A DNA stretch of 64,000 bases, taken from positions 62,001 to 126,000 of the forward strand of contig REEU01000142.1 of the NCBI GenBank assembly GCA_007694905.1, in the 5' to 3' direction. The notes beneath the pieces were generated by a model. That model had not been told where the DNA came from, did not search any database, and saw only the letters and a list, made by a program, of their open reading frames with translations. Below, piece after piece: positions 5,802 through 20,050 of the stretch. This DNA comes from Gammaproteobacteria bacterium (GTDB lineage Bacteria; Pseudomonadota; Gammaproteobacteria; Pseudomonadales; Azotimanducaceae). How positions within the stretch are numbered: position 1 is the first letter of the stretch; each line of letters opens with the position of its first letter. A program made the position numbers and the translations under genes.

Positions 5802-6486
5802 GGCAGGCCCTCCCGCCAGGGAGATCGACCTGGTGATCCATACTACTCGACAGGAGCGCCCGGTCAGACCCTCCCCGTTCAGCCATTGTGAGCGTAAATT
5901 CAAACGCGTTCAGAATCGCGATGTCAAACGAGGACCCCTGAGCTGGCGGGACTCATGGCGCTGCGTGCTCATGAGCGGCAGCACGGTGGAGATCGAACCA
6001 AGCGCCCTCCGGCCGCTCGGCGATCTGGAACAGCAGACGCTCGTGCATAACCCAATCTGCTCGGACAATCAGACCATCGGCGCGGGAAAGATCATAGCGA
6101 ACAGTCATGACCGGCCTCCGTTCTGGTCCATATCCCCATTACTGTAATTCGGACAAGACGGCGAATCCCGCTTGTCATCGATCTCGCACACGATGAAATG
6201 AGGGAAATCTCGGGTTGACAGCCTCCATCGCCTGCGGTCTCCTCGGTTCGGGGGCGGGAAGGGCCGGCAGCGATCGGATAGCGCAGCATAGCGGTGCCGA
6301 TCAGCACAGGTAGGCCACACCAGGAATCATCCCAGACAGTATCCCTTCCCTGATGGGCGGAACAGTATCGTTCCGCGACGGCTGCGGCTCGCCGGGCGCT
6401 GCATCCACAGTGGCGGTTATGTGTCGGGCGTCCTCGACCGGACTTCCCGACGAATCGCTGATTCGTATTTCGGGGAGGGACAGAAC
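5802..6486. other. 685-base intergenic region between divergent TPR and TonB-receptor genes
   Basis: This gap must hold the promoters of both flanking genes, which are divergent. Apart from the possible small gene at 5953-6108 I see no convincing ORF; a longer minus-strand frame at 6092-6499 has an arginine/cysteine-rich shadow-like composition. No clear sigma-70 promoter, Fur box or riboswitch could be picked out by eye. Confidence 0.5.
5953..6108 (-). CDS. Possible 51-residue small protein
   Basis: A short frame on the minus strand begins with ATG at 6108, preceded by GGAGG with about 5 bases of spacing. It encodes 51 residues (MTVRYDLSRADGLIVRADWV... ending EHAAP), with no signal or membrane segment. 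It sits inside an otherwise empty 685-base gap upstream of the TPR gene, in the same orientation. The ribosome-binding site and a plausible amino-acid composition argue for a gene; the shortness and lack of any recognised family argue against. No function is proposed. Confidence 0.3.
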   Translation of the reverse strand: MTVRYDLSRADGLIVRADWVMHERLLFQIAERPEGAWFDLHRAAAHEHAAP

Positions 6487-9400
6487 ATGAACCCAGCACG
6501 CCTGTGCCAGGCCATTGCTGCCTGCGCGATACCCATCGTCAGTTTATCCGGCTCGATCTCCACAGCTTCCGCGCAACAGCCCACCGTAATCGAAGAAATT
6601 GTCGTCACCGGCTCGCTCATCCGACGCGACAGCTTCGACTCCGCCTCGCCATTGACCGTGGTGGGGCAGGCGGACATCGCCAACAACGCGACGCCCAATC
6701 TCGGTGAGGTCCTGGTCAATCAGACGTTCAACTACGGCAGTGATTTCCAGACCAATACGTTCGCCGCCCGGCCGCAGATCGGCACGACGACGGCCGCCAA
6801 CCTGCGCGGGCTCGGGGCGGCCGCTACGCTGAATCTGATCGACGGACGGCGGGCCGGAGGCAACCTCAACAACTCCCTGCCGCAGATCGCCATCGAGCGC
6901 ATCGAGATCCTCAAGGACGGCGCGTCGGCCATCTACGGGACCGACGCGGTGGCCGGCGTGGTCAACCTCATCACCCGGCAGGACTACAGAGGCGCCGAGT
7001 TTTCCGTCTTCCAACAGCAGGACAAGGGCGGTGATCTGCGCGAGCAGCAATACGAGTTCATCGCCGGCGCCGAAACGGAGAATGGCCACATCACCATGGC
7101 CATGGGCTACAAGACCCGCTCGACGCTCGAACACCTCGACCGGCCGCGATTCACCCGCGAAGGCTTCCAGACCTCCGGGACCGGCAACCCAGGGGTATGG
7201 CTGGTACCGACCCGGGACGAAGACGGCAACCTCACCGGCCAATCGGCGCGCCTGCGTGATCCGGGCTGCGGTGCCGCGACGGCCCAGAGCCCGGGCGGCG
7301 GCGACATCGGCCAGAAAGGAAACTTCCTCTCCGGTGATCCCCGCAACGCAATCGAGTTCGCCCTCGGCCTGCCTCCAGGCGCCGCCGGCCCACAGACCTG
7401 CAGCCTGCATTTCGGCGAGTTCTGGAATTACGTCAACCCCAACGATCAGCTCAGCGGCTGGGTCAACTTCCGCCATCAGCTCACCGACAATCTGAGCAAC
7501 GAGATCGACTTCCAGGCCAATCGCCTGAAGACCGACAGCCGCGGCACGCCGCAGAACCCTGGCGGCCGGATCGAAGAGTTTCCGACCGTCCTCGGCGATC
7601 ACCCGGGCAACCCGTTCCGGGCCCTGAATGCCGACGGCGAACCGCTGTACGCCATGGACGATGGCAGCGGTAACCCCGCCCGCGACGACAGTGGCAACGT
7701 CATCCTCAGCGCTGCGCCCACCGATCCGTCCTCCGGCGTGCCCTTCAACGAGGACGTCAACGTGGTGGAACTGCGTGCACTGGGCAAGCTCGGGCTTCTG
7801 CCGGGAGCCAATCAGCCGCGCAACCTCAATCCGGACGGCTCCAACACCGGCAACGCCACGTTCGATTCCACCACCTACAGGCTCGTCAACAGCCTGCGCT
7901 ACACGGTGCCTGACTCGACCTGGGAAGTGGGGCTGACCGGCATCCTGTCGAACACGCGGACCGTGCTCGAGGCCAAGAACTCCAGCCAAAGTGCACTGGT
8001 GGCAGGACTTCGTGGTGAACTCTCCGTGGCACCAGAGTCGGATCCGACCGGCGCCGAGGGCCTGCGTTTCTGGAACCCCTTCTCGACCCAGGCGCTGAAC
8101 TGTGAAAATCGTGTCTGCGAGCACACCGGGACGCCGGACTTCGCCAACGAGGTCGCGGTCCTCGATGCCATCGACATCCAGACCAACAACGTCACGGACA
8201 CCCTGTTCTGGTCAGCGAACCTGCTCGCCACCGGGGATATCATGGAAATGCCCGCGGGAACGCTGCAGGGCGCATTCGGGGTCGAGTACCGCAGAACCCG
8301 GATCGATGAAGACATCGACGACGCCCGCAACCGCTGCGACTGGCATGAAGGGGGTTGCGGCTTCGACTGGCGCGCCGACCAGGATATCTACTCCGGGTAC
8401 TTCGAACTGGCCGTTCCGGTCATCGACCGGCTCGACCTGACCCTCGCCGGCCGCTACGAGGACTACGGCGGCGGCATCGGGAGTTCCTTCGACCCGAAAG
8501 TCTCCTTCCTCTGGCAGCCCATGGACATGCTCTCCGTCCGTGGATCCTGGAGCTCCGCCTTCATCGCGCCATCGCTCACCCAGCAGTTCGAGTCGGAGAA
8601 CTGCGGCCTGGAGACCATGGAGGACGAGCTGACCGCAGACTTCTCGGGATCGTTCCGCGTCGCCTGCGTCAGAGGCAATCCCGATCTGTCACCGGAGTCG
8701 GCCGATGTCTACAACATCGGTGCCTCCATCCGCCTGCTCGACGGCGATCTCACGCTCGGCGTCGACTATGCCGTCTACGACTTCGAGGATCGTATCTCTC
8801 AGGAGACCGGGAACAACGTCCTGCGCGCGAACTTCAACGACTTTCTCGCGGCCGGCAATGATCCCGACAGCCAAGCCGACATCGACGCCTGGATCGCCAC
8901 CATGGAGCCGCGGATCTTCCGGGATCCCACCGGCGTCGTCTCGCGAGTCCTGGTGAACCGGGTCAATGCCCAGGAGATGAAGCACAAAGCCTGGGACTTC
9001 TTCGGCCGCTACAACCTGTCGCTGAACGGCTGGGGTGATTTCAACTTCACCCTCAATGCGACCTATATCGATCAGTTCAGCTTCGATCTGGGAACTGGAG
9101 ATCCCCAGGACCGCGGCGACGGCGCGGGCAAGCAGAACGAGCAGGTAGCGGAAATCCCGCCGCTGCCCAAGTGGCGCGTCAATGGCACCGTGAACTACTT
9201 CCTCGGCAATCACGCAGCGACCCTGCGCGTGCGCTGGATCGACAGCTTCGAGCTGCAGTTCAACTCCGCCGGCCTGCAGACGCTGCATGGCCTGCGCGGC
9301 GGCAGCGACTCGGTCAGTTCCATCACCTACGTGGACGCGAACTACAGATACACGTTCGATCGCCTGCTCGGTGACCGTTCGACGACGCTCGAAATCGGTG

Positions 9401-9516
9401 CGAACAACATCTTCAATGAGTTTCCCGATCCATTCTTCAACCTTGGCGGCATCGAGACCTTCGTTCACGACGTGCGGGGCCGGATGGCCTATCTGAGACT
9501 CAGTCAGGAACTCTGA
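6487..9516 (+). CDS. TonB-dependent outer-membrane receptor
   Basis: A 1009-residue outer-membrane active transporter. A signal peptide ends near ASAQQ (residue 31). A TonB-box-like segment VIEEIVVTGS follows, then a plug domain (about residues 45-165, with LRGLGAAATLNLIDGRR and IEILKDGASAIYGTDAVAGV). A long beta barrel closes with the terminal strand GRMAYLRLSQEL. Family members import siderophores, cobalamin, glycans or peptides using TonB energy. Several extracellular-loop cysteines occur in near pairs (CENRVCEH, CDWHEGGCGFDW), suggesting loop disulfides. The ATG at 6487 follows GGGGAGGGAC. No ExbB/ExbD/TonB, sigma/anti-sigma or Fur element was seen nearby; the substrate is unknown. Confidence 0.95.
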   Translation: MNPARLCQAIAACAIPIVSLSGSISTASAQQPTVIEEIVVTGSLIRRDSFDSASPLTVVGQADIANNATPNLGEVLVNQTFNYGSDFQTNTFAARPQIGTTTAANLRGLGAAATLNLIDGRRAGGNLNNSLPQIAIERIEILKDGASAIYGTDAVAGVVNLITRQDYRGAEFSVFQQQDKGGDLREQQYEFIAGAETENGHITMAMGYKTRSTLEHLDRPRFTREGFQTSGTGNPGVWLVPTRDEDGNLTGQSARLRDPGCGAATAQSPGGGDIGQKGNFLSGDPRNAIEFALGLPPGAAGPQTCSLHFGEFWNYVNPNDQLSGWVNFRHQLTDNLSNEIDFQANRLKTDSRGTPQNPGGRIEEFPTVLGDHPGNPFRALNADGEPLYAMDDGSGNPARDDSGNVILSAAPTDPSSGVPFNEDVNVVELRALGKLGLLPGANQPRNLNPDGSNTGNATFDSTTYRLVNSLRYTVPDSTWEVGLTGILSNTRTVLEAKNSSQSALVAGLRGELSVAPESDPTGAEGLRFWNPFSTQALNCENRVCEHTGTPDFANEVAVLDAIDIQTNNVTDTLFWSANLLATGDIMEMPAGTLQGAFGVEYRRTRIDEDIDDARNRCDWHEGGCGFDWRADQDIYSGYFELAVPVIDRLDLTLAGRYEDYGGGIGSSFDPKVSFLWQPMDMLSVRGSWSSAFIAPSLTQQFESENCGLETMEDELTADFSGSFRVACVRGNPDLSPESADVYNIGASIRLLDGDLTLGVDYAVYDFEDRISQETGNNVLRANFNDFLAAGNDPDSQADIDAWIATMEPRIFRDPTGVVSRVLVNRVNAQEMKHKAWDFFGRYNLSLNGWGDFNFTLNATYIDQFSFDLGTGDPQDRGDGAGKQNEQVAEIPPLPKWRVNGTVNYFLGNHAATLRVRWIDSFELQFNSAGLQTLHGLRGGSDSVSSITYVDANYRYTFDRLLGDRSTTLEIGANNIFNEFPDPFFNLGGIETFVHDVRGRMAYLRLSQEL

Positions 9517-9597: not shown

Positions 9598-10119
9598 ATG
9601 ACGCGCTCCACCATGACCATTCTGCTGCTCGCAGCATCGTGCTGCCTGGTTTCGGCGGCGACGGCAGCGAGCGAGCTCGCTCGCTGTGGCGCCATCGAAA
9701 GTGCCACGGAGCGCCTCGACTGCTTCGATGCAATGGTTCGTCAGCAAGCCGACGAGCAGGAAGCGCTCGTCCAGACACCGCAGGCCCCAGAACGGGTGGC
9801 GCCTGACCAAGCCATCGAGGCTCCTGCAGTCGCCACTGCATCGACTCCCAGCACCGATCCGATTGCCCAATTCGGACAGGGGCGACAGAAGCGGCCGCAG
9901 ACGGAGATCGATTCGATCACCAGCCGTGTCGATAGCGTTCGCCGAACACCCCTCCGCCATCACGTGATGACGCTGGCCAACGGCCAAGTGTGGGTCGAGA
10001 ACGAACCCGATCGACGACGGATCGCACCGGCTCAGGACATCGTGATCAGAACGCATCGCTGGCACTTCGAGATGGAGCTGCGATCGCAACCGAATGTCGC
10101 GGTACACCGAACCGAGTAG
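9598..10119 (+). CDS. Small exported protein of unknown function
   Basis: A 173-residue protein with a signal peptide (residues 1-24, ending SAATAAS). It then has ARCGAIESATERLDCFDAMV, a Cys-x(13)-Cys element like those at the mature N-terminus of several proteobacterial exported proteins (VasI-type and related). A Pro/Ala/Gln-rich linker follows (residues 50-100). The C-terminal module has LANGQVWVEN and WHFEMEL, resembling a small beta-rich domain common in periplasmic proteins of this kind. It lies 81 bases after the TonB receptor, beyond a hairpin. Role unknown; a periplasmic helper of the receptor is only a guess. Confidence 0.75.
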   Translation: MTRSTMTILLLAASCCLVSAATAASELARCGAIESATERLDCFDAMVRQQADEQEALVQTPQAPERVAPDQAIEAPAVATASTPSTDPIAQFGQGRQKRPQTEIDSITSRVDSVRRTPLRHHVMTLANGQVWVENEPDRRRIAPAQDIVIRTHRWHFEMELRSQPNVAVHRTE

Positions 10120-10225: not shown

Positions 10226-12193
10226 ATGAGCACGCAAACACCCGCCGCTGAGATCGCAGCCCTGAGCGAATCCTTCGACGTTGCGCTCGCCCAGCTAACC
10301 ACCGCCCGCCAGTCCGATCCGCGGGCCCCGATAGCCGACGTGCTGGAGTCGGCGCGGGCCTTGATGGCGGTGCCAGGCGGACTCGATGCCCTGTACGCAC
10401 GCGTACCCGCCATCGAATCCGCAGCGGTCTTCGCCAACAGTGACTGGGCGCAGCCGGCCATCCTGCAACCCGCCCTGGCGGAACGTTCCCTCAGGCAGGG
10501 CGAAGCAAACATCACGCTCATCGAGGCCCTCAGCGAGATCCGGCTGCTCGCGGTGGCCATGGGCGACTACTTCCACCCTGGAGTCTCGGCAGAACGGGCC
10601 CGGAACTTCCTCACGCAGGTGATGGCGCTGAACCTCGACCTGCTGTCCGGACAGATGAACGAGGCCGACCGCGAGCGCCCTGACACTCTCGGTGAGATCG
10701 TGCTCACACTGTACCGGTATCTCCTCGACCGACTGGGTTACGAAAGCATCCTCGACAGTCTGGTCGATGAGATTCAGCGTCTGCTGGTCCAGCGGCCAAT
10801 TCAGACGGACAGCATCAAGCGGATGATCGGGCAGATCGCCCGCTGCCTGTTCGACCCGAGCATCGACACCGTGGGCATGGATAAAGCGGCGCGCCTTGTG
10901 CGTGGGCTGTTCGGGCCGAGCCCGGGATGTCGCGAGGACCCGGGCATCGAAGTCTACGCCGAGCGCCTGCTGGCGCTGGACGAAGATGGACTGACCGCGG
11001 AAGCCAGCAGCTTCGCATCTGTCATGCACGAGACGGGTCTGGTGTCGCCTTATCATCCCGTCCTGCTGCGCTATCTGCGCGGGCAACATGATCGCCTGAT
11101 CCCTGTGGCGCTTGGCCTCAGCATGACGGGCAGAGACAGCCTGGAATGCTACCGGCAGCTGGTGCATGCCCTGATCGACGAGGCCGTGTTTTCCGAGACC
11201 AGTCAGGCGGTCTACGGCCTGACCATGCTGCTGGAACGCGGCTCGCTGTTCAGCCCGCCCATGGCGGCCGGGCTGTGGCGGCAGATCAAACTGCCATTGT
11301 GCGCGCAAGCGGCAAACACGCTGAGCGCGGTGTTCAGCAGCGCGCAGCCGCCACGGGTCTTCCTGCTCGCCGGCGTACTGAGCCTCATCGGCCAGCCGCT
11401 CGGCGTCGGGCAGGGCAACAACCCAACCTGCCAGTCCGTGATCGGCATCTCCATGTGGGCCCACAACGACGCGGACTACCTGCTGCAGCTTGTGACCTGG
11501 GCGGCCCGCGACGATGAAATCATCATGCGCTTCGAAGGCCAGCAGATTTCTTCGAAGGGGCTCGAAGCGGGCCTCGCCAAGCAAGCCCCCATGGACGTGG
11601 ATCCGGTGTCACTGATTCTGGTGCCGCATCTGGATCGCATTTACGCCGAAATGGGCCGCTTGTGCGGAACGCGGGACGATGACTTGCATCGCTGGATCAA
11701 CCCGGAGATGTACGGCTGGTGGGTGGGTCACGGCTTTCGCGTGGTGGCCAATCACCAGACAGGGGCGATCGAAGGGCACGAAGACTTCCTGCGCGACTTC
11801 TACGCCCGCTACCACCCCTATTACAACGGCCACCTCCCGGTGATCCACCCCCAACCCGCAGGCATCGCCGTTACAGACAACACCGCGCGTCTCGTCGGCC
11901 GGCATGCGATCACCATCACACGAGTCGCCCTCGACCACGACGGCGAGATACGGGTTTACTTCTTCAACCCCAACAATGACAGTCGTCAGGACTGGGGACA
12001 GGGAATCCACTGCGCGATTCACGGCCATGGCGAACGCCATGGCGAGGCGTCACTGCCCATCGTGGAATTTGCCTCCCGTCTGTTCGTGTTTCACTTCGAC
12101 CCATTGGAACTCGGAGACAGGGACGCAGCCCCTGACGCTGAAGTTACGCAAGCCGTCGAGCTCGCACGCCACAGCTGGGCACCCAAGGCCTGA
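10226..12193 (+). CDS. Unrecognised 655-residue protein with Cys-His-Asn pattern (paralogue 1)
   Basis: I do not recognise the family. There is no signal peptide or obvious membrane segment, so it is likely cytoplasmic. The first 390 residues look mostly helical (for example LIEALSEIRLLAVAMGDY). The last 260 hold the motifs shared with the next gene: GVGQGNNPTCQS (Cys402), TWAARDDEIIMRFEG, HYNGHLPV-like and HPQPAGIAVTD tracts, GRHAITITRV (His560), YFFNPNNDS (Asn581 onwards) and GEASLPIVEFASRLF. A Gln before a Cys, a His about 160 residues on and an Asn/Asp about 20 after that is the order of catalytic residues in papain-like cysteine peptidases and acyl transferases; that reading is inference. 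The neighbour at 12330 is a clear tandem duplicate. Confidence 0.8.
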   Translation: MSTQTPAAEIAALSESFDVALAQLTTARQSDPRAPIADVLESARALMAVPGGLDALYARVPAIESAAVFANSDWAQPAILQPALAERSLRQGEANITLIEALSEIRLLAVAMGDYFHPGVSAERARNFLTQVMALNLDLLSGQMNEADRERPDTLGEIVLTLYRYLLDRLGYESILDSLVDEIQRLLVQRPIQTDSIKRMIGQIARCLFDPSIDTVGMDKAARLVRGLFGPSPGCREDPGIEVYAERLLALDEDGLTAEASSFASVMHETGLVSPYHPVLLRYLRGQHDRLIPVALGLSMTGRDSLECYRQLVHALIDEAVFSETSQAVYGLTMLLERGSLFSPPMAAGLWRQIKLPLCAQAANTLSAVFSSAQPPRVFLLAGVLSLIGQPLGVGQGNNPTCQSVIGISMWAHNDADYLLQLVTWAARDDEIIMRFEGQQISSKGLEAGLAKQAPMDVDPVSLILVPHLDRIYAEMGRLCGTRDDDLHRWINPEMYGWWVGHGFRVVANHQTGAIEGHEDFLRDFYARYHPYYNGHLPVIHPQPAGIAVTDNTARLVGRHAITITRVALDHDGEIRVYFFNPNNDSRQDWGQGIHCAIHGHGERHGEASLPIVEFASRLFVFHFDPLELGDRDAAPDAEVTQAVELARHSWAPKA

Positions 12194-12233
12194 CGCTCGC
12201 GCACGACGCGCATCGGTCCAGGTGCCGGCGTTT

Positions 12234-12245
12234 CGAGTCGACTCG
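12234..12245. promoter_or_regulatory. Perfect 12-base palindrome CGAGTCGACTCG
   Basis: It lies in the 136-base gap between the two paralogues, about 85 bases before the second start codon. It could be an operator for a dimeric regulator or a chance palindrome. No copy was noticed upstream of the first paralogue. Confidence 0.25.
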
Positions 12246-12329
12246 TTCGATCTGCTAGCCTGACTCGAACTGTATTCGCGCTTCCAGTCGAGGCCGCATC
12301 CTGCCCGCGCGCCTGTTGAGTAAAGAGGC

Positions 12330-14324
12330 ATGCCCGTCGACAACCCCGAGTCCGATCCTGCCCCGCATGGCAGCGAAGGTTCAGATTCCGTCGTAGCCGC
12401 ATTCGACGCTGCGATCGCCCGGCTCGCTGCCGCCAACGCCACGGCAGGCGTCTCACCCGTATTCGAGGTCCTCGAGCCGGCACGAGCCCTCCTCTTCGAC
12501 AGCGCGGGGCTGGACATGCTTTACGCGCGCGTCGAAGCACTCGAAGCAGCAGGATTTTTCCGCGGCAGTGACTGGGACGCTCCGCAGACCCTGGTGCCGT
12601 CTCTTGCCGTGCGCACGATCCGCCACGGCGAACCGGTGGCCACCCTCGTCGAGGCGATCAGCCAGATTCGCATGCTGGCCGTTGCCAGGGGCGATTCCAC
12701 CCATCCGTCGCTGTCGCCCGAGCACGCCCAGCACTTCCTGGCCCAGGTGATGGCGATGAATCTCGACCTCGTCGTCGGAGATCTCCAGGAAGCGGATCGG
12801 CTGCGGCCGGAGAACCTCGGTTACGCTGTTCAGACTCTGTATCACTACCTGCTGCGTCACCTGGGCTACGGCAACATCCTCGAGCATCTCGTCTCGGAGG
12901 TCTGGCGCATCCTCGCCCAGCGCCCGGTTCAGGTGAGCGGCGTAAAGCACATGGTGACGCAAATCGCCGCCTGCCTGAACAGCCCGGACCCCATCGCCAA
13001 CGCGGTCAGCGACGACGCCCTGCAGCTGATCAACGCTGTCTTCAGCCCAACCGAGGGCTGTCGCGAAGATCCTGGATTCGAAGTGTACGGCGAACGCCTC
13101 GCGACCATGGACGACGCGACCCTGCTTCAGGAAGCGATCGCCTTCGCACAGGCGATGCACAACACTGGCCTGGTTTCGCCCTACATGCCGGGTTTCATTC
13201 GTTACCTGCGCACGCGGTGGAATGAATTGATCCCCACCGCTCTGGGCCTCAGCCCTACCGGCGCCGATGCGTTCAACTGCTATCCGGCACTGATCCACGC
13301 GCTGATCGACGGGGCCATCTTTCCTGAAACCAATCAGGCCGCCTACGGCCTCGCGATGATGCTCGAACGCGGCATTCTCTATTCGCCGCCAGTCGCACCC
13401 TCGTTGTGGCGGCAGCTGAGGCTGACGCTATGCGATACCACAACGCGGAAAATCACCGAGGTTTTCGGCGACAGCCGCCGACCGGAATGCTTTCTGCTCG
13501 CTGACGTCCTCAATGTGCTCGGTCTTCCGCTCGGCGTCGGTCAGGGTAACTATCCCACCTGCCAGTCCACGCGAGCCATTTCCATGTGGGCCTATAGCGA
13601 ACCCGCGGATCTTCTGCGCATCGTCGCCTGGGCCGCGCGCGACGACGAAGTAATCATGCGCTTCGAAGGTGAAAACATCTCATCGAAGGAATTGGCGTCC
13701 GGTCTGGCGAAGGACCCTCCCGTGGACGTCGACGCCGTTTCCCTGGTCACTGTTCCCCATCTCGATCGTATCTATTTCGAAATGGGGCGGCGCAGCGCAG
13801 GCCGCGGCGAGGATCCACACAAGTGGGTCAACGCAGAGTTCCACGGCGATCACGTCGGTCACGGCTTTCGTATCGCCGTCGACGTCTTCACGGGCGGTCT
13901 CAAAGACTTCGAGGGCTTCCTGCGTGATTTCTACGCGGCCTATCACCCGTTCCACAACGGCAACCTTCCCGTCATAAACCCACAACCGGCAGGCATCGCG
14001 GTGACTGACAGCGGGAGTCGTTTCCTTGGCTGGCACGCCATCAGCATTCAGCGCGTCGCGCTCGATGCGAACAGGGTCATGCGCGCGTATTTCTTCAACC
14101 CCAACAACGACAGCGGCCAGGATTGGGGACAGGGAATTGTGACGTCGACTCATGGCAACGGCGAACTGTACGGCGAGGCCTCGCTACCGATGGACGAATT
14201 CGCCTCCAGACTGTACGTCTTTCACTACGACCCGCTCGAGAAAGGCAATCCAGGTTCCGTCCCAGATGCTGAAATCCGACGCGCCTCGCAGCTTGCACGC
14301 AGCAGCTGGGCCTCCGATCGGTGA
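12330..14324 (+). CDS. Unrecognised 664-residue protein with Cys-His-Asn pattern (paralogue 2)
   Basis: Tandem paralogue of the preceding gene, alike over its full length with roughly half the residues identical by eye. Shared tracts include GVGQGNYPTCQS (Cys411), AWAARDDEVIMRFEG, HPFHNGNLPVINPQPAGIAV, WHAISIQRV (His569), YFFNPNNDSGQDWGQGI (Asn590 onwards) and GEASLPMDEFASRLYVF. The Cys-to-His (158) and His-to-Asn (21) spacings match paralogue 1 exactly. No signal peptide. It is separated from paralogue 1 by 136 bases that carry a perfect 12-base palindrome. An ATP-grasp gene follows 270 bases later. I do not assign a function; a papain-like hydrolase or transferase is the hypothesis. Confidence 0.8.
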   Translation: MPVDNPESDPAPHGSEGSDSVVAAFDAAIARLAAANATAGVSPVFEVLEPARALLFDSAGLDMLYARVEALEAAGFFRGSDWDAPQTLVPSLAVRTIRHGEPVATLVEAISQIRMLAVARGDSTHPSLSPEHAQHFLAQVMAMNLDLVVGDLQEADRLRPENLGYAVQTLYHYLLRHLGYGNILEHLVSEVWRILAQRPVQVSGVKHMVTQIAACLNSPDPIANAVSDDALQLINAVFSPTEGCREDPGFEVYGERLATMDDATLLQEAIAFAQAMHNTGLVSPYMPGFIRYLRTRWNELIPTALGLSPTGADAFNCYPALIHALIDGAIFPETNQAAYGLAMMLERGILYSPPVAPSLWRQLRLTLCDTTTRKITEVFGDSRRPECFLLADVLNVLGLPLGVGQGNYPTCQSTRAISMWAYSEPADLLRIVAWAARDDEVIMRFEGENISSKELASGLAKDPPVDVDAVSLVTVPHLDRIYFEMGRRSAGRGEDPHKWVNAEFHGDHVGHGFRIAVDVFTGGLKDFEGFLRDFYAAYHPFHNGNLPVINPQPAGIAVTDSGSRFLGWHAISIQRVALDANRVMRAYFFNPNNDSGQDWGQGIVTSTHGNGELYGEASLPMDEFASRLYVFHYDPLEKGNPGSVPDAEIRRASQLARSSWASDR

Positions 14325-14414: not shown

Positions 14415-14594
14415 GGTCAAAAAGACGGGACGCCTATTCGGACGAATGATCCGAACAGAACCTGAGCGATCAATCGAGCATCGTTCGGGACGTCGGTCGA
14501 CTTCCTGCACGAATGCATGCTGCCTCTGACACCGCAGCATAGCCACGTATCGCTCGCGTCCACTTCATGCACAAGACACGAGGAATGCTTTCTC

Positions 14595-15902
14595 ATGGCC
14601 ACCAAAACACAAGTACAACCAGCGGTAGAGCTCGCAGCCTGGGTCGATCCGACACTGGATTCCGTTCTCGGGACGGAAACACCCAAGGATCCGAAAAAGG
14701 GCTACATCGCCCTGCTTGGATGGAGCGTCAATGCCATCAAGGCTGCGCAGCAATTCGACCGGCGGTACATCGTCGTGGCCCCCGACTGGGCCGCCGACTT
14801 CTGCGAGGCCAACAAGATCCCCTATGTTCCCTGGGATTTCGTTCGCCTCAACGACCGCTCCATGGAGATCGCTGAGGTTCTCAAGGACGAAGGCGTGGAT
14901 GTTGCGATCCCTCTGTTCGAGGAAACCGTCGAATGGTCGGGCGCGATCAACTCAGTTCTGCTCGACAATCCCCGCATGTATGGTCAGTCAATTCTTTTCC
15001 GGGACAAGGCGCTGATGAAGCGCCGCGCCCAGCTTGGCGGAATTCGCGTCGGTATCTTCGAGGAAGCGCACGAGAAGGAAGACATCATCCGCTTCATGAA
15101 GCGCGTCAACCAGACGCTTCTCAAGCTCGACGGCGACCCGGATGACCCGATCCACGTCAAGGCTTTCGACAAGGCGGGTTGCCTTGGGCACCGCATGATT
15201 CGCAAGATGGAAGAGATCGACCTGATTCCGGACGAAGAGTACCCACTGCTCATGGAAAGCCATCTGGACGGCTGGGAATTCGCCGTCGAGGCCTGGATTC
15301 ACGACGGTAAGATCAAATTTCTCAACATCTCGGAGTACGTGACGCTGGGTTACTCGGTGTTCGTGCCCGCCACCAAGGAGCTCGAAAGCTGGCGCGATGC
15401 GATCACCAAGCAGATCGAGAAGCTGATCAAGACCTTCGACATTCAGTTTGGACTCATTCATCCGGAGTACTTCGTCACCGCAGACGGCGAGATGTACTTT
15501 GGTGAAATTGCCTATCGGCCACCAGGCTTCAAGGCCTTCGAACTCATCGAGCGTGCCTACGGATTCAACGCTTACCAGGCATCCATGCTGGTGTTCGACC
15601 CCAAGAGCACCAAGGAGGAGGTGAACGCATTCTTTCCGCGCGAGGTTGTGGACGCAAAAGGCTATGCGGGTTGCTTCGGCGTTTACCCCCGGCGTCGCGT
15701 CGTCAGCAAGCTGGAGATGCCCAAGGAAACCATCGAGCACCCCTATTTCGAATCCCACGAACTGGTCGCTCCCGCAGAGGAAACGGTTCCTGACCGGTCG
15801 GCTTTCGGGACCCACTGGGGCCTGATCTTCTTCTTCGGCGATGATCCCATCGTCATGCGAGATCTGCTCAGGGCGCAGGAGGAGTTGGACTTCTACGTCT
15901 AG
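14595..15902 (+). CDS. ATP-grasp domain protein
   Basis: A 435-residue protein of the ATP-grasp superfamily, whose members join a carboxylate, activated as acyl phosphate, to an amine or thiol. An N-terminal Rossmann-like lobe (YIALLGWSVNAIKAAQQF, residues 36-53) is followed by FRDKALMKRRAQ, the usual entry to the ATP-binding lobe. The metal/ATP site follows: FAVEAWIHDGKIKFLNISEY near 230-250, GLIHPEYFVTADGEMYFGEI near 285-305, then AYRPPG. The organisation resembles carboxylate-amine ligases such as BacD/DabC-type enzymes rather than biotin carboxylase. The ATG at 14595 has GAGGAA about 10 bases upstream; the in-frame ATG at 14517 gives an uncharacteristic leader. Acceptor and donor are unknown. 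Confidence 0.85.
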   Translation: MATKTQVQPAVELAAWVDPTLDSVLGTETPKDPKKGYIALLGWSVNAIKAAQQFDRRYIVVAPDWAADFCEANKIPYVPWDFVRLNDRSMEIAEVLKDEGVDVAIPLFEETVEWSGAINSVLLDNPRMYGQSILFRDKALMKRRAQLGGIRVGIFEEAHEKEDIIRFMKRVNQTLLKLDGDPDDPIHVKAFDKAGCLGHRMIRKMEEIDLIPDEEYPLLMESHLDGWEFAVEAWIHDGKIKFLNISEYVTLGYSVFVPATKELESWRDAITKQIEKLIKTFDIQFGLIHPEYFVTADGEMYFGEIAYRPPGFKAFELIERAYGFNAYQASMLVFDPKSTKEEVNAFFPREVVDAKGYAGCFGVYPRRRVVSKLEMPKETIEHPYFESHELVAPAEETVPDRSAFGTHWGLIFFFGDDPIVMRDLLRAQEELDFYV

Positions 15903-18604: not shown

Positions 18605-20050
18605 ATGGCCCCGGAAACTACCGAACTTCCCGACTTCAGCACGCTCACCCCGGATGAACTCGACGATCAGCTTGCGCTGCTGTGCAGCCACATCTACGCC
18701 GCCGAGTATCAGCTCCTGCTCTGCATCCGGGAGTGGGACAAGCGCTGTTCGATTCACGTCTACGGCGTGAAGTCGACGGCCCACTGGCTCAATGCCCGTT
18801 GCGGCATCGCCATGGGTGCCGCCCGCGAGAAGGTCCGTGTCGCCCGCGCGCTGGAGCAGTTGCCTCGCGTCAGCGAGCTGTTCGCTCGCGGCCAGCTCAG
18901 CTACTCCAAGGTACGCGCCCTCACCCGCGTCGCCACAGCCGCCAATGAGGACTACCTGGTCGGCGTTGCGCTGCAGGGCACGGCCTCGCACCTGGAACGC
19001 CTGACCTCCGCCTACCGCAAGTTGGAGCGCCTGCATGATCCCGAGCGCTTAATGAACCAGCGCCGGTTGCGCCACGTGAAGTGGTACTGGGACGACGACG
19101 GCATGCTGGTGTTCCACGGCCGACTGCCACCCGAGGACGGCGCCCTGTTCATCAAGTGCATCGAAGCCATGCGCGACGTCATCTATCGCGAGGAAGGTCC
19201 GCGGGACAAAGGCGATGCCTTCGAGCAGGCCCAGGGCAAGGTGGAGCAGGATGTGTTCAGTCCCGCAGCCGCGCGAAACGCGGACGCACTGCTGAAACTG
19301 CTGGAGACCGGGGCCGCGAGTTAACCACGCGCCCTCGGCGGGCCGGAGCGGCTGCAGGTGATGTTGCATGTGCCGGTGACACCGGCGCAAACGGAGGCCG
19401 TTCCCGACGTTGGTGTCCCCGACAATGGTGTCCCCGACAATGGTGTCCCCGACGACCTCGCCATTGGCCTCCATGCCCATCTGGAGCCAGGCACCGTGGT
19501 CGCACCCGAGACCGCACGCCGGCTGTGTTGTGATGCTTCGCGGGTGCTGATGGTGGAGAACGACAAGGGCGAACCGCTGTCAGTCGGGCGACGCCAGCGC
19601 ACGGTGCCGTGGCCGATCCGCCGGGCGCTGATGCAGCGGGACGGTGGTTGTACGTTCCCGGGCTGCACTGAACGTCGCTACGTGGATGCCCACCACATCC
19701 AGCACTGGGCAGACGGTGGCGAAACCTCGCTTGAGAACTGCACGTTGCTCTGCCGCCACCATCACCGTCTGGTGCACGAGGAAGGTTTCGGCTGCGAACG
19801 CTCAGCCGATGGTGAAATGCTGTTCCGCTATCCGGACGGTGGCGTGTTACCGGCGAGTTTTCGCCTGGCGCCGGGCAGCTACCGGAGTCTCGCCGACCGG
19901 CACCGGAAACAGCGCATCGGCATCTCCGCAGAAACATCCATCCGCTCGACGGTCTGGGGGCGCGAGATCGACATGAGCGGATTGCTGGCGGGGCTGATTG
20001 CGGTCAGCCATGGTCCGGATTTCGAGTACCCGACGCCGCGACGCGGCTAG
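18605..20050 (+). pseudogene. DUF222/HNH endonuclease gene interrupted by an in-frame TAA
   Basis: Two frames in the same register together make one protein of the DUF222-plus-HNH family (13E12-repeat-like, often mobile-element associated). Part one, 18605-19324, 239 residues, is the helical DUF222 domain (AHWLNARCGIAMGAAREKVRV, FSYSK-like QLSYSKVRALTRVA). It ends at TAA 19322-19324, and the same frame continues at once with PRALGGPERLQVMLHVPV, the next expected segment. Part two, ending 20050, carries the HNH nuclease core: RDGGCTFPGCTERRYVDAHH, HWADGG, NCTLLCRHHHRLVHE. An internal GTG-ATG at 19358-19363 might allow re-initiation. Nuclease activity would need the second part. The start ATG 18605 follows GGAG. 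Confidence 0.8.
19411..19455 (+). repeat. Three 15-base in-frame tandem repeats
   Basis: TGGTGTCCCCGACAA is repeated at 19411-19425 and 19426-19440, with a third copy ending GA at 19441-19455. In frame it encodes GVPDN-GVPDN-GVPDD, a linker between the DUF222 and HNH parts. The number of copies may vary by slippage between strains. Confidence 0.9.

Follow-up and report, generated by a model that had tools for sequence, protein, structure and literature searches.

Two adjacent genes, p1 and p2, lie in a 64,000-nucleotide stretch of a gammaproteobacterial genome of the family Azotimanducaceae (assembly GCA_007694905.1, contig REEU01000142.1, positions 62,001 to 126,000 of the forward strand; hereafter, the window) and encode paralogous proteins with a predicted papain-like C-terminal domain. 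We consider it moderately likely that p1 and p2 encode intracellular cysteine enzymes of the papain fold, which act as the acyl-cleaving or acyl-transferring half of an amide-bond cycle, together with a probable ATP-grasp ligase encoded by the next gene (g) and a histone deacetylase (HDAC)-like protein (h). The p1 family, g, and usually h together probably constitute a pathway, as yet undescribed, for making and breaking amide bonds. The best clues to function come from g, which lies next door, and h, which lies elsewhere in this genome; neither was mentioned in the original prediction, a model's reading of the DNA.

The original prediction had described two adjacent genes encoding proteins of 655 and 664 residues that are alike from end to end, and both open reading frames (ORFs) were recovered (Table 1). 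The two proteins aligned over nearly their full length, with 57.9% identity over 620 residues (56% in alignment A1), and the motifs that had been quoted for them were located in p1 and p2. The spacings reported to be the same in both, 158 residues from Cys to His and 21 from His to Asn, were indeed identical (Cys402-His560-Asn581 in p1 and Cys411-His569-Asn590 in p2), and a Gln was present 6 residues ahead of the Cys in both proteins. A third p1 paralogue, 49% identical, is encoded outside the window on the same contig, about 50 kb upstream (G000:C315:20350-22164); it lies away from g and has a long branch in the family tree. This genome has three p1-type genes versus one g and one h.

Residue conservation was examined in an 88-row family set, in which four rows duplicate the window's own genes and some rows are truncated, and in a diverse set, A2 (42 rows; remaining rows 42–78% identical to p1). 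Gaps aside, there were no substitutions at Gln396, Cys402, His560, and Asn581 in the 88-row set, and these four residues and Asn583 were invariant in all 42 rows of A2. The 158- and 21-residue spacings were kept in 42 of the 42 A2 rows and in all 86 rows of the 88-row set that have all three residues. Because the residues are conserved at fixed spacing across the 88 family rows, the Cys-His-Asn pattern is not due to chance. p1 and p2 appear to carry a complete Gln-Cys-His-Asn active site and are presumably catalytic.

A full-length AlphaFold2 (AF2) model of p1, built on the 42-row alignment, had a mean predicted local distance difference test score (pLDDT) of 88.6 and a predicted template modeling score (pTM) of 0.84. 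Residues 1–390 were helical in this model. In the C-terminal part, Cys402 opens helix 402–414, which is followed by strands 433–436, 439–442, and 543–550; His560 lies within strand 556–569 and Asn581 directly past strand 575–580, with later strands at 608–611 and 619–623. According to the available part of a classification of papain-like enzymes (PMC10318531), the Cys of the papain-like core sits at the N-terminal end of a helix, strand 2 carries the His, and strand 3 carries a polar residue. In the p1 model, the core helix begins with the Cys, the His lies on the second core strand, and the Asn follows the third, where the numbering of the core strands is our own reading of the secondary structure. 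The predicted oxyanion Gln ahead of the Cys (Gln396) is invariant in sequence, its spatial position being uncertain at a pLDDT of about 60. Judged from secondary structure and superposition, the Cys, His, and Asn of p1 would lie close to each other.

When the full-length model was compared with solved structures using VIA-align, calpain protease cores ranked first, with a Z of 7.6 over 210 residues. For the C-terminal domain modeled alone (residues 372–655; pLDDT 89.2), the best Foldseek match was calpain-1 (E 2.1e-3, probability 0.94), and VIA-align matched calpain-3, the C39 peptidase PCAT1, and phytochelatin synthase with Z of 9.1 (rmsd [root-mean-square deviation] 4.1, 192 aligned residues), 8.6, and 7.7, respectively. 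The 50 VIA-align matches listed, out of 372 chains with Z ≥2, were all papain-fold enzymes as far as we recognized them. Among the matches listed were calpains, PCAT1, phytochelatin synthase, staphopain, AvrPphB, bleomycin hydrolase, mite and plant C1 proteases, and ZUFSP. These Z values are moderate, and VIA-align warns that a Z below 8 may reflect a common arrangement. Because the listed matches are unanimous and the invariant catalytic residues occupy the expected positions, we regard the papain fold predicted for the C-terminal domain of p1 as well supported. The proposal of a papain-like C-terminal domain on a helical domain of about 390 residues was consistent with both the AF2 layout and the papain-fold VIA-align matches listed.

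The original prediction had recognized no named family for these proteins, and p1 and p2 remained unmatched in Pfam, NCBIfam, PADLOC, and PHROGs up to an E-value of 1. A Pfam search across all 42 A2 rows gave only scattered weak matches, the best with an E-value of 0.011. The calpain profile Peptidase_C2 (PF00648) had no matches at E ≤10 in this genome; by family C2's own profile, p1 and p2 are not calpains. Membership in Peptidase C39 was considered and rejected, since the C39 domain fronts an ABC exporter, whereas the predicted papain domain of p1 is C-terminal after a helical domain and resembles PCAT1 in fold only. Against solved structures, a phmmer search with p1 yielded three matches at E 0.3–1, all of them MARTX protease entries over the His-Asn stretch, and a p1 profile yielded six matches, all designed or PPR helical proteins; both results were regarded as noise. 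The fold is known, and the p1 family is unnamed in the libraries searched. We thus view the p1 family as an unnamed addition to the papain-like superfamily, now with partner genes.

A scan of the genome_contigs collection found 461 stretches encoding p1 relatives, and the best 80 were kept. These 80 came mostly from Marinobacter, Halomonas and its relatives, and Salinisphaera, and also from Saccharospirillum, Porticoccus, Haliea, and others; one p1 relative was found on a 1.8 Mb Halomonas plasmid record. No p1 relative was found in viral_contigs (two-pattern scan) or in the phage collection. Literature searches covering titles and abstract openings returned no published account of the p1 family or of the p1-g-h trio. 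The available parts of a survey of bacterial calpains (PMC4631099) do not mention Halomonas, Gammaproteobacteria, or Marinobacter, and those of the papain classification (PMC10318531) do not mention Marinobacter or Halomonas.

In the genomes searched, the presence of g was strictly associated with that of the p1 family. Genomes were scored at E-value thresholds of 0.001 for the p1 family and 1e-60 for g, the latter chosen by us. In the class draw of 369 genomes, the 13 with a p1-family gene were exactly the 13 with g, which was found in 0 of the 356 others (Fisher p 3e-24, a value that ignores common descent); the weakest g score in these carriers was 1.5e-254. The phylum draw of 398 genomes gave the same picture, with 11 p1-family carriers that were the same 11 genomes with g and 0 of the other 387 having it. 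The two draws share two carriers (G000, the genome of the window, and G365), leaving 22 distinct carriers. A p1-family gene adjoined g in 20 of the 22; h alone intervened between them in G260, and they were about 55 kb apart in G288. These adjacency counts were taken from genome-search coordinates, as our home-made ORF caller chose an antisense ORF at some loci (e.g., L132). At the thresholds applied, p1, g, and h were all missing from G272 (f4) and G002 (f6), two genomes whose families also include carriers. The linkage between p1 and g is well supported. The g protein is strongly conserved, with a mean column identity of 80% over 18 rows, and its profile matched three PDB chains, namely two L-amino acid ligases (E about 1e-3) and 4dim (E 2e-4), an entry named phosphoribosylglycinamide synthetase.

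The third member, h, is present as one copy in this genome, outside the window (G000:C203:28634-29725). It adjoins p1-g pairs in G181, G260, G347, G544, and the named Marinobacter locus L073, and the five adjoining h proteins form one subfamily with 47–75% identity. The genes g, p1, and h are contiguous on one strand with short gaps in G181, and the order is p1-h-g in G260. The h protein (365 residues in G181) matched HDAC6 entries in the PDB at E-values of 1.9e-106 to 2.7e-104, and also HDA1 and HDAH. Asp189, His191, Asp277, His151-His152, and Tyr319 were invariant in the five rows; we take these residues to be the HDAC zinc and tandem-His positions. The match to solved HDACs and the retained zinc ligands place h in the histone deacetylase superfamily. 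Acetylpolyamine-hydrolase-like genes of Halomonas were 33–38% identical to the h subfamily. At a cut-off of E 1e-90, which was chosen by us and leaves HDAC relatives below it uncounted, the h subfamily was detected in every class carrier but G160 (12 of 13) versus 1 of the 356 non-carriers (Fisher p 2e-20, again ignoring common descent). Class carriers scored h at 1.8e-142 or better, and the sole match in a non-carrier, G214, scored 1.6e-97 and contained two stop codons. Among nine further carriers, h was found in seven (missing in G744 and G380). As a separate observation, in G490 (L195; C11, 1536825-1542307), which has several copies of g and of h, one copy of g is separated from one of h by about 3 kb.

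The amide-bond cycle is our preferred reading because the set would combine an ATP-driven amide maker (g), a papain-fold cysteine acyl cleaver or transferrer, and an HDAC-type amide hydrolase. In this cycle, g would use ATP to join a carboxylate and an amine as an amide bond. The papain-like enzyme would attack the amide made by g, or a related one, via a Cys-acyl intermediate, and would either hydrolyze it or pass the acyl group to another amine, and h, as a zinc HDAC-like amidohydrolase, would strip an acyl group from the amine partner. The most likely substrate, by inference, would be a small amine or amino-acid conjugate; the catalysis and the direction of the pathway are likewise putative. 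The tight three-gene profile suggests that the pathway is complete and undescribed and that it operates in bacteria that include Marinobacter, Halomonas, and Salinisphaera. Three proteins are thereby brought under one testable hypothesis, namely that the product of g should be the substrate of the papain-like enzyme.

Each member of the putative pathway has counterparts among known systems. p1 and p2 resemble the clan CA papain-like superfamily in the Gln...Cys...His...Asn order, with the Gln 6 residues before the Cys, the Cys at a helix N-terminus, and the His and Asn on or after successive strands, and calpain cores are the best structural matches of p1; they differ in having no Pfam or NCBIfam match, a helical N-terminal domain, and a dedicated ATP-grasp partner. 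No secretion signal was spotted by eye at the N-terminus of p1 or p2. Phytochelatin synthase acts on a peptide made by an ATP-grasp enzyme. The phytochelatin synthase Alr0975 (family C83) shares with p1 the papain fold (Z 7.7) and an intracellular amide chemistry, whereas no sequence similarity to p1 was detected and the partner genes differ. In butirosin biosynthesis, the ATP-grasp ligase BtrJ works with the papain-fold acyltransferase BtrH, a pairing to which g and p1 can be likened; however, no carrier protein or antibiotic cluster was recognized near p1-g, and BtrH was not among the Pfam matches. The available part of PMC10318531 places BtrH with papain, calpain, and staphopain in papain-like cluster I. 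The g protein probably shares the ATP-grasp fold with 4dim and the L-amino acid ligases 4wd3 and 3vot, to which its profile aligned at E 2e-4 to 1e-3, but is a distinct, highly conserved subfamily tied to p1. Likewise, h is similar to HDAC6/HDAH-type deacetylases in sequence and in what are presumably the zinc and tandem-His positions, but it is a bacterial subfamily nearly confined, at the threshold used, to genomes with p1 and g.

Several results weigh against the amide-bond cycle. The p1 model is less confident at residues 391–400 (pLDDT 60), which include Gln396, and at 581–590 (70). With the full-length model, Foldseek found nothing at E 0.001 and ranked helical repeat proteins at the top; the domain alone also had no match at E ≤0.001, and the calpain rows had template modeling scores (TM-scores) of about 0.3–0.4. 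The enzymatic activity of p1 and p2 is itself a prediction from fold and residues. The match of g to Pfam ATP-grasp_4 (PF13535) is weak (E 1.1e-5; 25.6 bits versus a curated cut-off of 27). h is missing at the threshold in 3 of the 22 carriers and is mostly distant from p1 and g. The Fisher values for both partners ignore common descent, and the 13 carriers of the class draw come from 10 families. G365 and G663 showed one p1-family gene versus two g genes, where copy numbers in the large draws are lower bounds with at most 3–5 candidates scored per genome (at most three for p1). The window p1 belongs to a clade that is mostly away from g (15 of 16 rows not beside it).

Other explanations were weighed against the same data. 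p1 and p2 could be calpain-type intracellular endopeptidases that digest or process proteins, with g and h merely retained in the same lineages. The calpain protease cores at the top of the structural matches and a helical N-terminal domain that could bind proteins agree with this idea, which we nevertheless find quite unlikely, because an exact genome match with one ligase subfamily and neighborhood in 21 of 22 carriers (with h between in one) would be unexpected for a general protease, and the calpain Pfam profile matches nothing in this genome. Modification of proteins, in which g would add an amino acid or small group, the papain-like enzyme would remove it, and h would deacylate lysines of the same targets, is also unlikely, though it is compatible with several features: a helical domain would be apt for binding proteins, the nearest PDB relatives of h are HDAC6-type deacetylases, and the ATP-grasp, papain-like, and HDAC folds are all found in protein-editing enzymes. 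Of the three PDB chains related to g, however, two are ligases of free amino acids, and no conserved fourth gene that might be a target stands beside p1, g, or h, which alone recur in more than four of the loci compared; other shared neighbors looked confined to relatives. A related version is a bacterial protein-tagging cycle, in which g would write an amino-acid-like tag, the papain-fold enzyme on its helical-repeat scaffold would erase or transfer it, and the HDAC6-like h would edit the same targets. The sets of ligase, cysteine peptidase, and deacetylase that edit eukaryotic tubulin resemble such a cycle in logic, not in descent. We regard the tagging cycle as rather improbable.

A role in polyamine conjugation, in which g would attach an amino acid or an acyl group to a polyamine, p1 would hydrolyze the conjugate, and the HDAC-like enzyme would deacetylate polyamines, draws on the neighbors of some relatives. 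The Halomonas-type loci L010, L018, and L022 have another HDAC-superfamily gene (acetylpolyamine-hydrolase-like) and an FAD amine-oxidase-like gene 2–4 genes downstream, an amino-acid permease gene adjoins the p1-type gene in L010, the p1-type gene of L004 is followed by FAD amine-oxidase-like and glutamine-synthetase-like genes, and such genes occur several kb off in L043, L046, L055, and L059. Nevertheless, they are close by in only 4 of 101 loci, g was not found in the available flanks of those four, and no NCBIfam polyamine model reached its cut-off, which makes this role distinctly doubtful. Maturation of a ribosomal peptide, with g cross-linking a precursor and a C39-like papain domain trimming it, would accord with PCAT1 among the top structural matches and with the use of ATP-grasp ligases by graspetides (described in the available part of PMC8939145). 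It is very improbable, because no conserved short ORF was seen nearby: among the best 40 pairs listed, the short ORFs around the p1-g pair in 15 genomes matched one another only as h shadows, as g ends, or between close relatives. In addition, no transporter family recurred beside the pair across families. Equally remote is a non-catalytic papain-fold scaffold, which would fit the fact that activity is only predicted but leaves four active-site residues invariant in 42 of 42 diverse sequences.

The history of the family was examined in a maximum-likelihood tree of 42 rows (midpoint root for drawing only), with 24 rows labeled as beside g and 18 as not; the window p1, two genes from g, was labeled as not beside it. 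Adjacency to g was scattered over deep branches of the tree, and pairing with g was therefore read as the old state. p2 falls in a clade mostly beside g (6 of 7 rows), and the window p1 looks like a derived extra copy beside p2 and g. That this genome has three p1-type copies but single copies of g and h suggests that the p1-type copies differ in acceptor or in regulation.

Table 1. Coordinates of p1, p2, g, and the predicted functional parts of p1 in the window
Feature	Position	Strand	Description and evidence
p1	10226..12193	+	655 residues; predicted papain-fold cysteine enzyme with N-terminal helical domain; ORF, 461 related stretches, AF2 pLDDT 88.6
p1 N-terminal helical part	10226..11338	+	To residue 371; all-helical in AF2, to about 390; weak armadillo/HEAT-type matches
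p1 catalytic papain-fold domain (predicted)	11339..12190	+	Residues 372–655; domain-alone AF2 pLDDT 89.2; VIA-align matches listed
Gln396 codon	11411..11413	+	Predicted oxyanion-hole Gln, 6 before Cys402; Q in 88/88 rows; low model confidence there
Cys402 codon	11429..11431	+	Predicted nucleophile, N-terminus of helix 402–414; C in 88/88 rows; model
His560 codon	11903..11905	+	Predicted general base, strand 556–569; H in 87/88 rows, 1 gap; model
Asn581 codon	11966..11968	+	Predicted third catalytic residue, just past strand 575–580; N in 86/88 rows, 2 gaps; model
p2	12330..14324	+	664-residue p1 paralogue; Cys411, His569, Asn590; clade mostly beside the ATP-grasp gene; ORF, spacing, tree
g	14517..15902	+	Probable ATP-grasp ligase, p1-family partner; next gene after p2; start probably 14595 by relatives; Pfam and PDB matches, shared genomes

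Other genes flank the p1-p2-g region in the window. A TonB-dependent receptor gene (6421-9516, + strand) lies just upstream of the p1/p2 pair, and a gene for a 173-residue protein (9598-10119, + strand) lies between it and p1. A tblastn search with these two genes gave no match in the 80 genome_contigs loci (best 80 of 461). The 173-residue protein showed a weak VasI-like (type VI secretion) match, with an E-value of 1.2e-4 that is below the cut-off. Downstream of g, a 239-residue protein encoded at 18605-19324 on the + strand matched DUF222 with an E-value of 5e-16.

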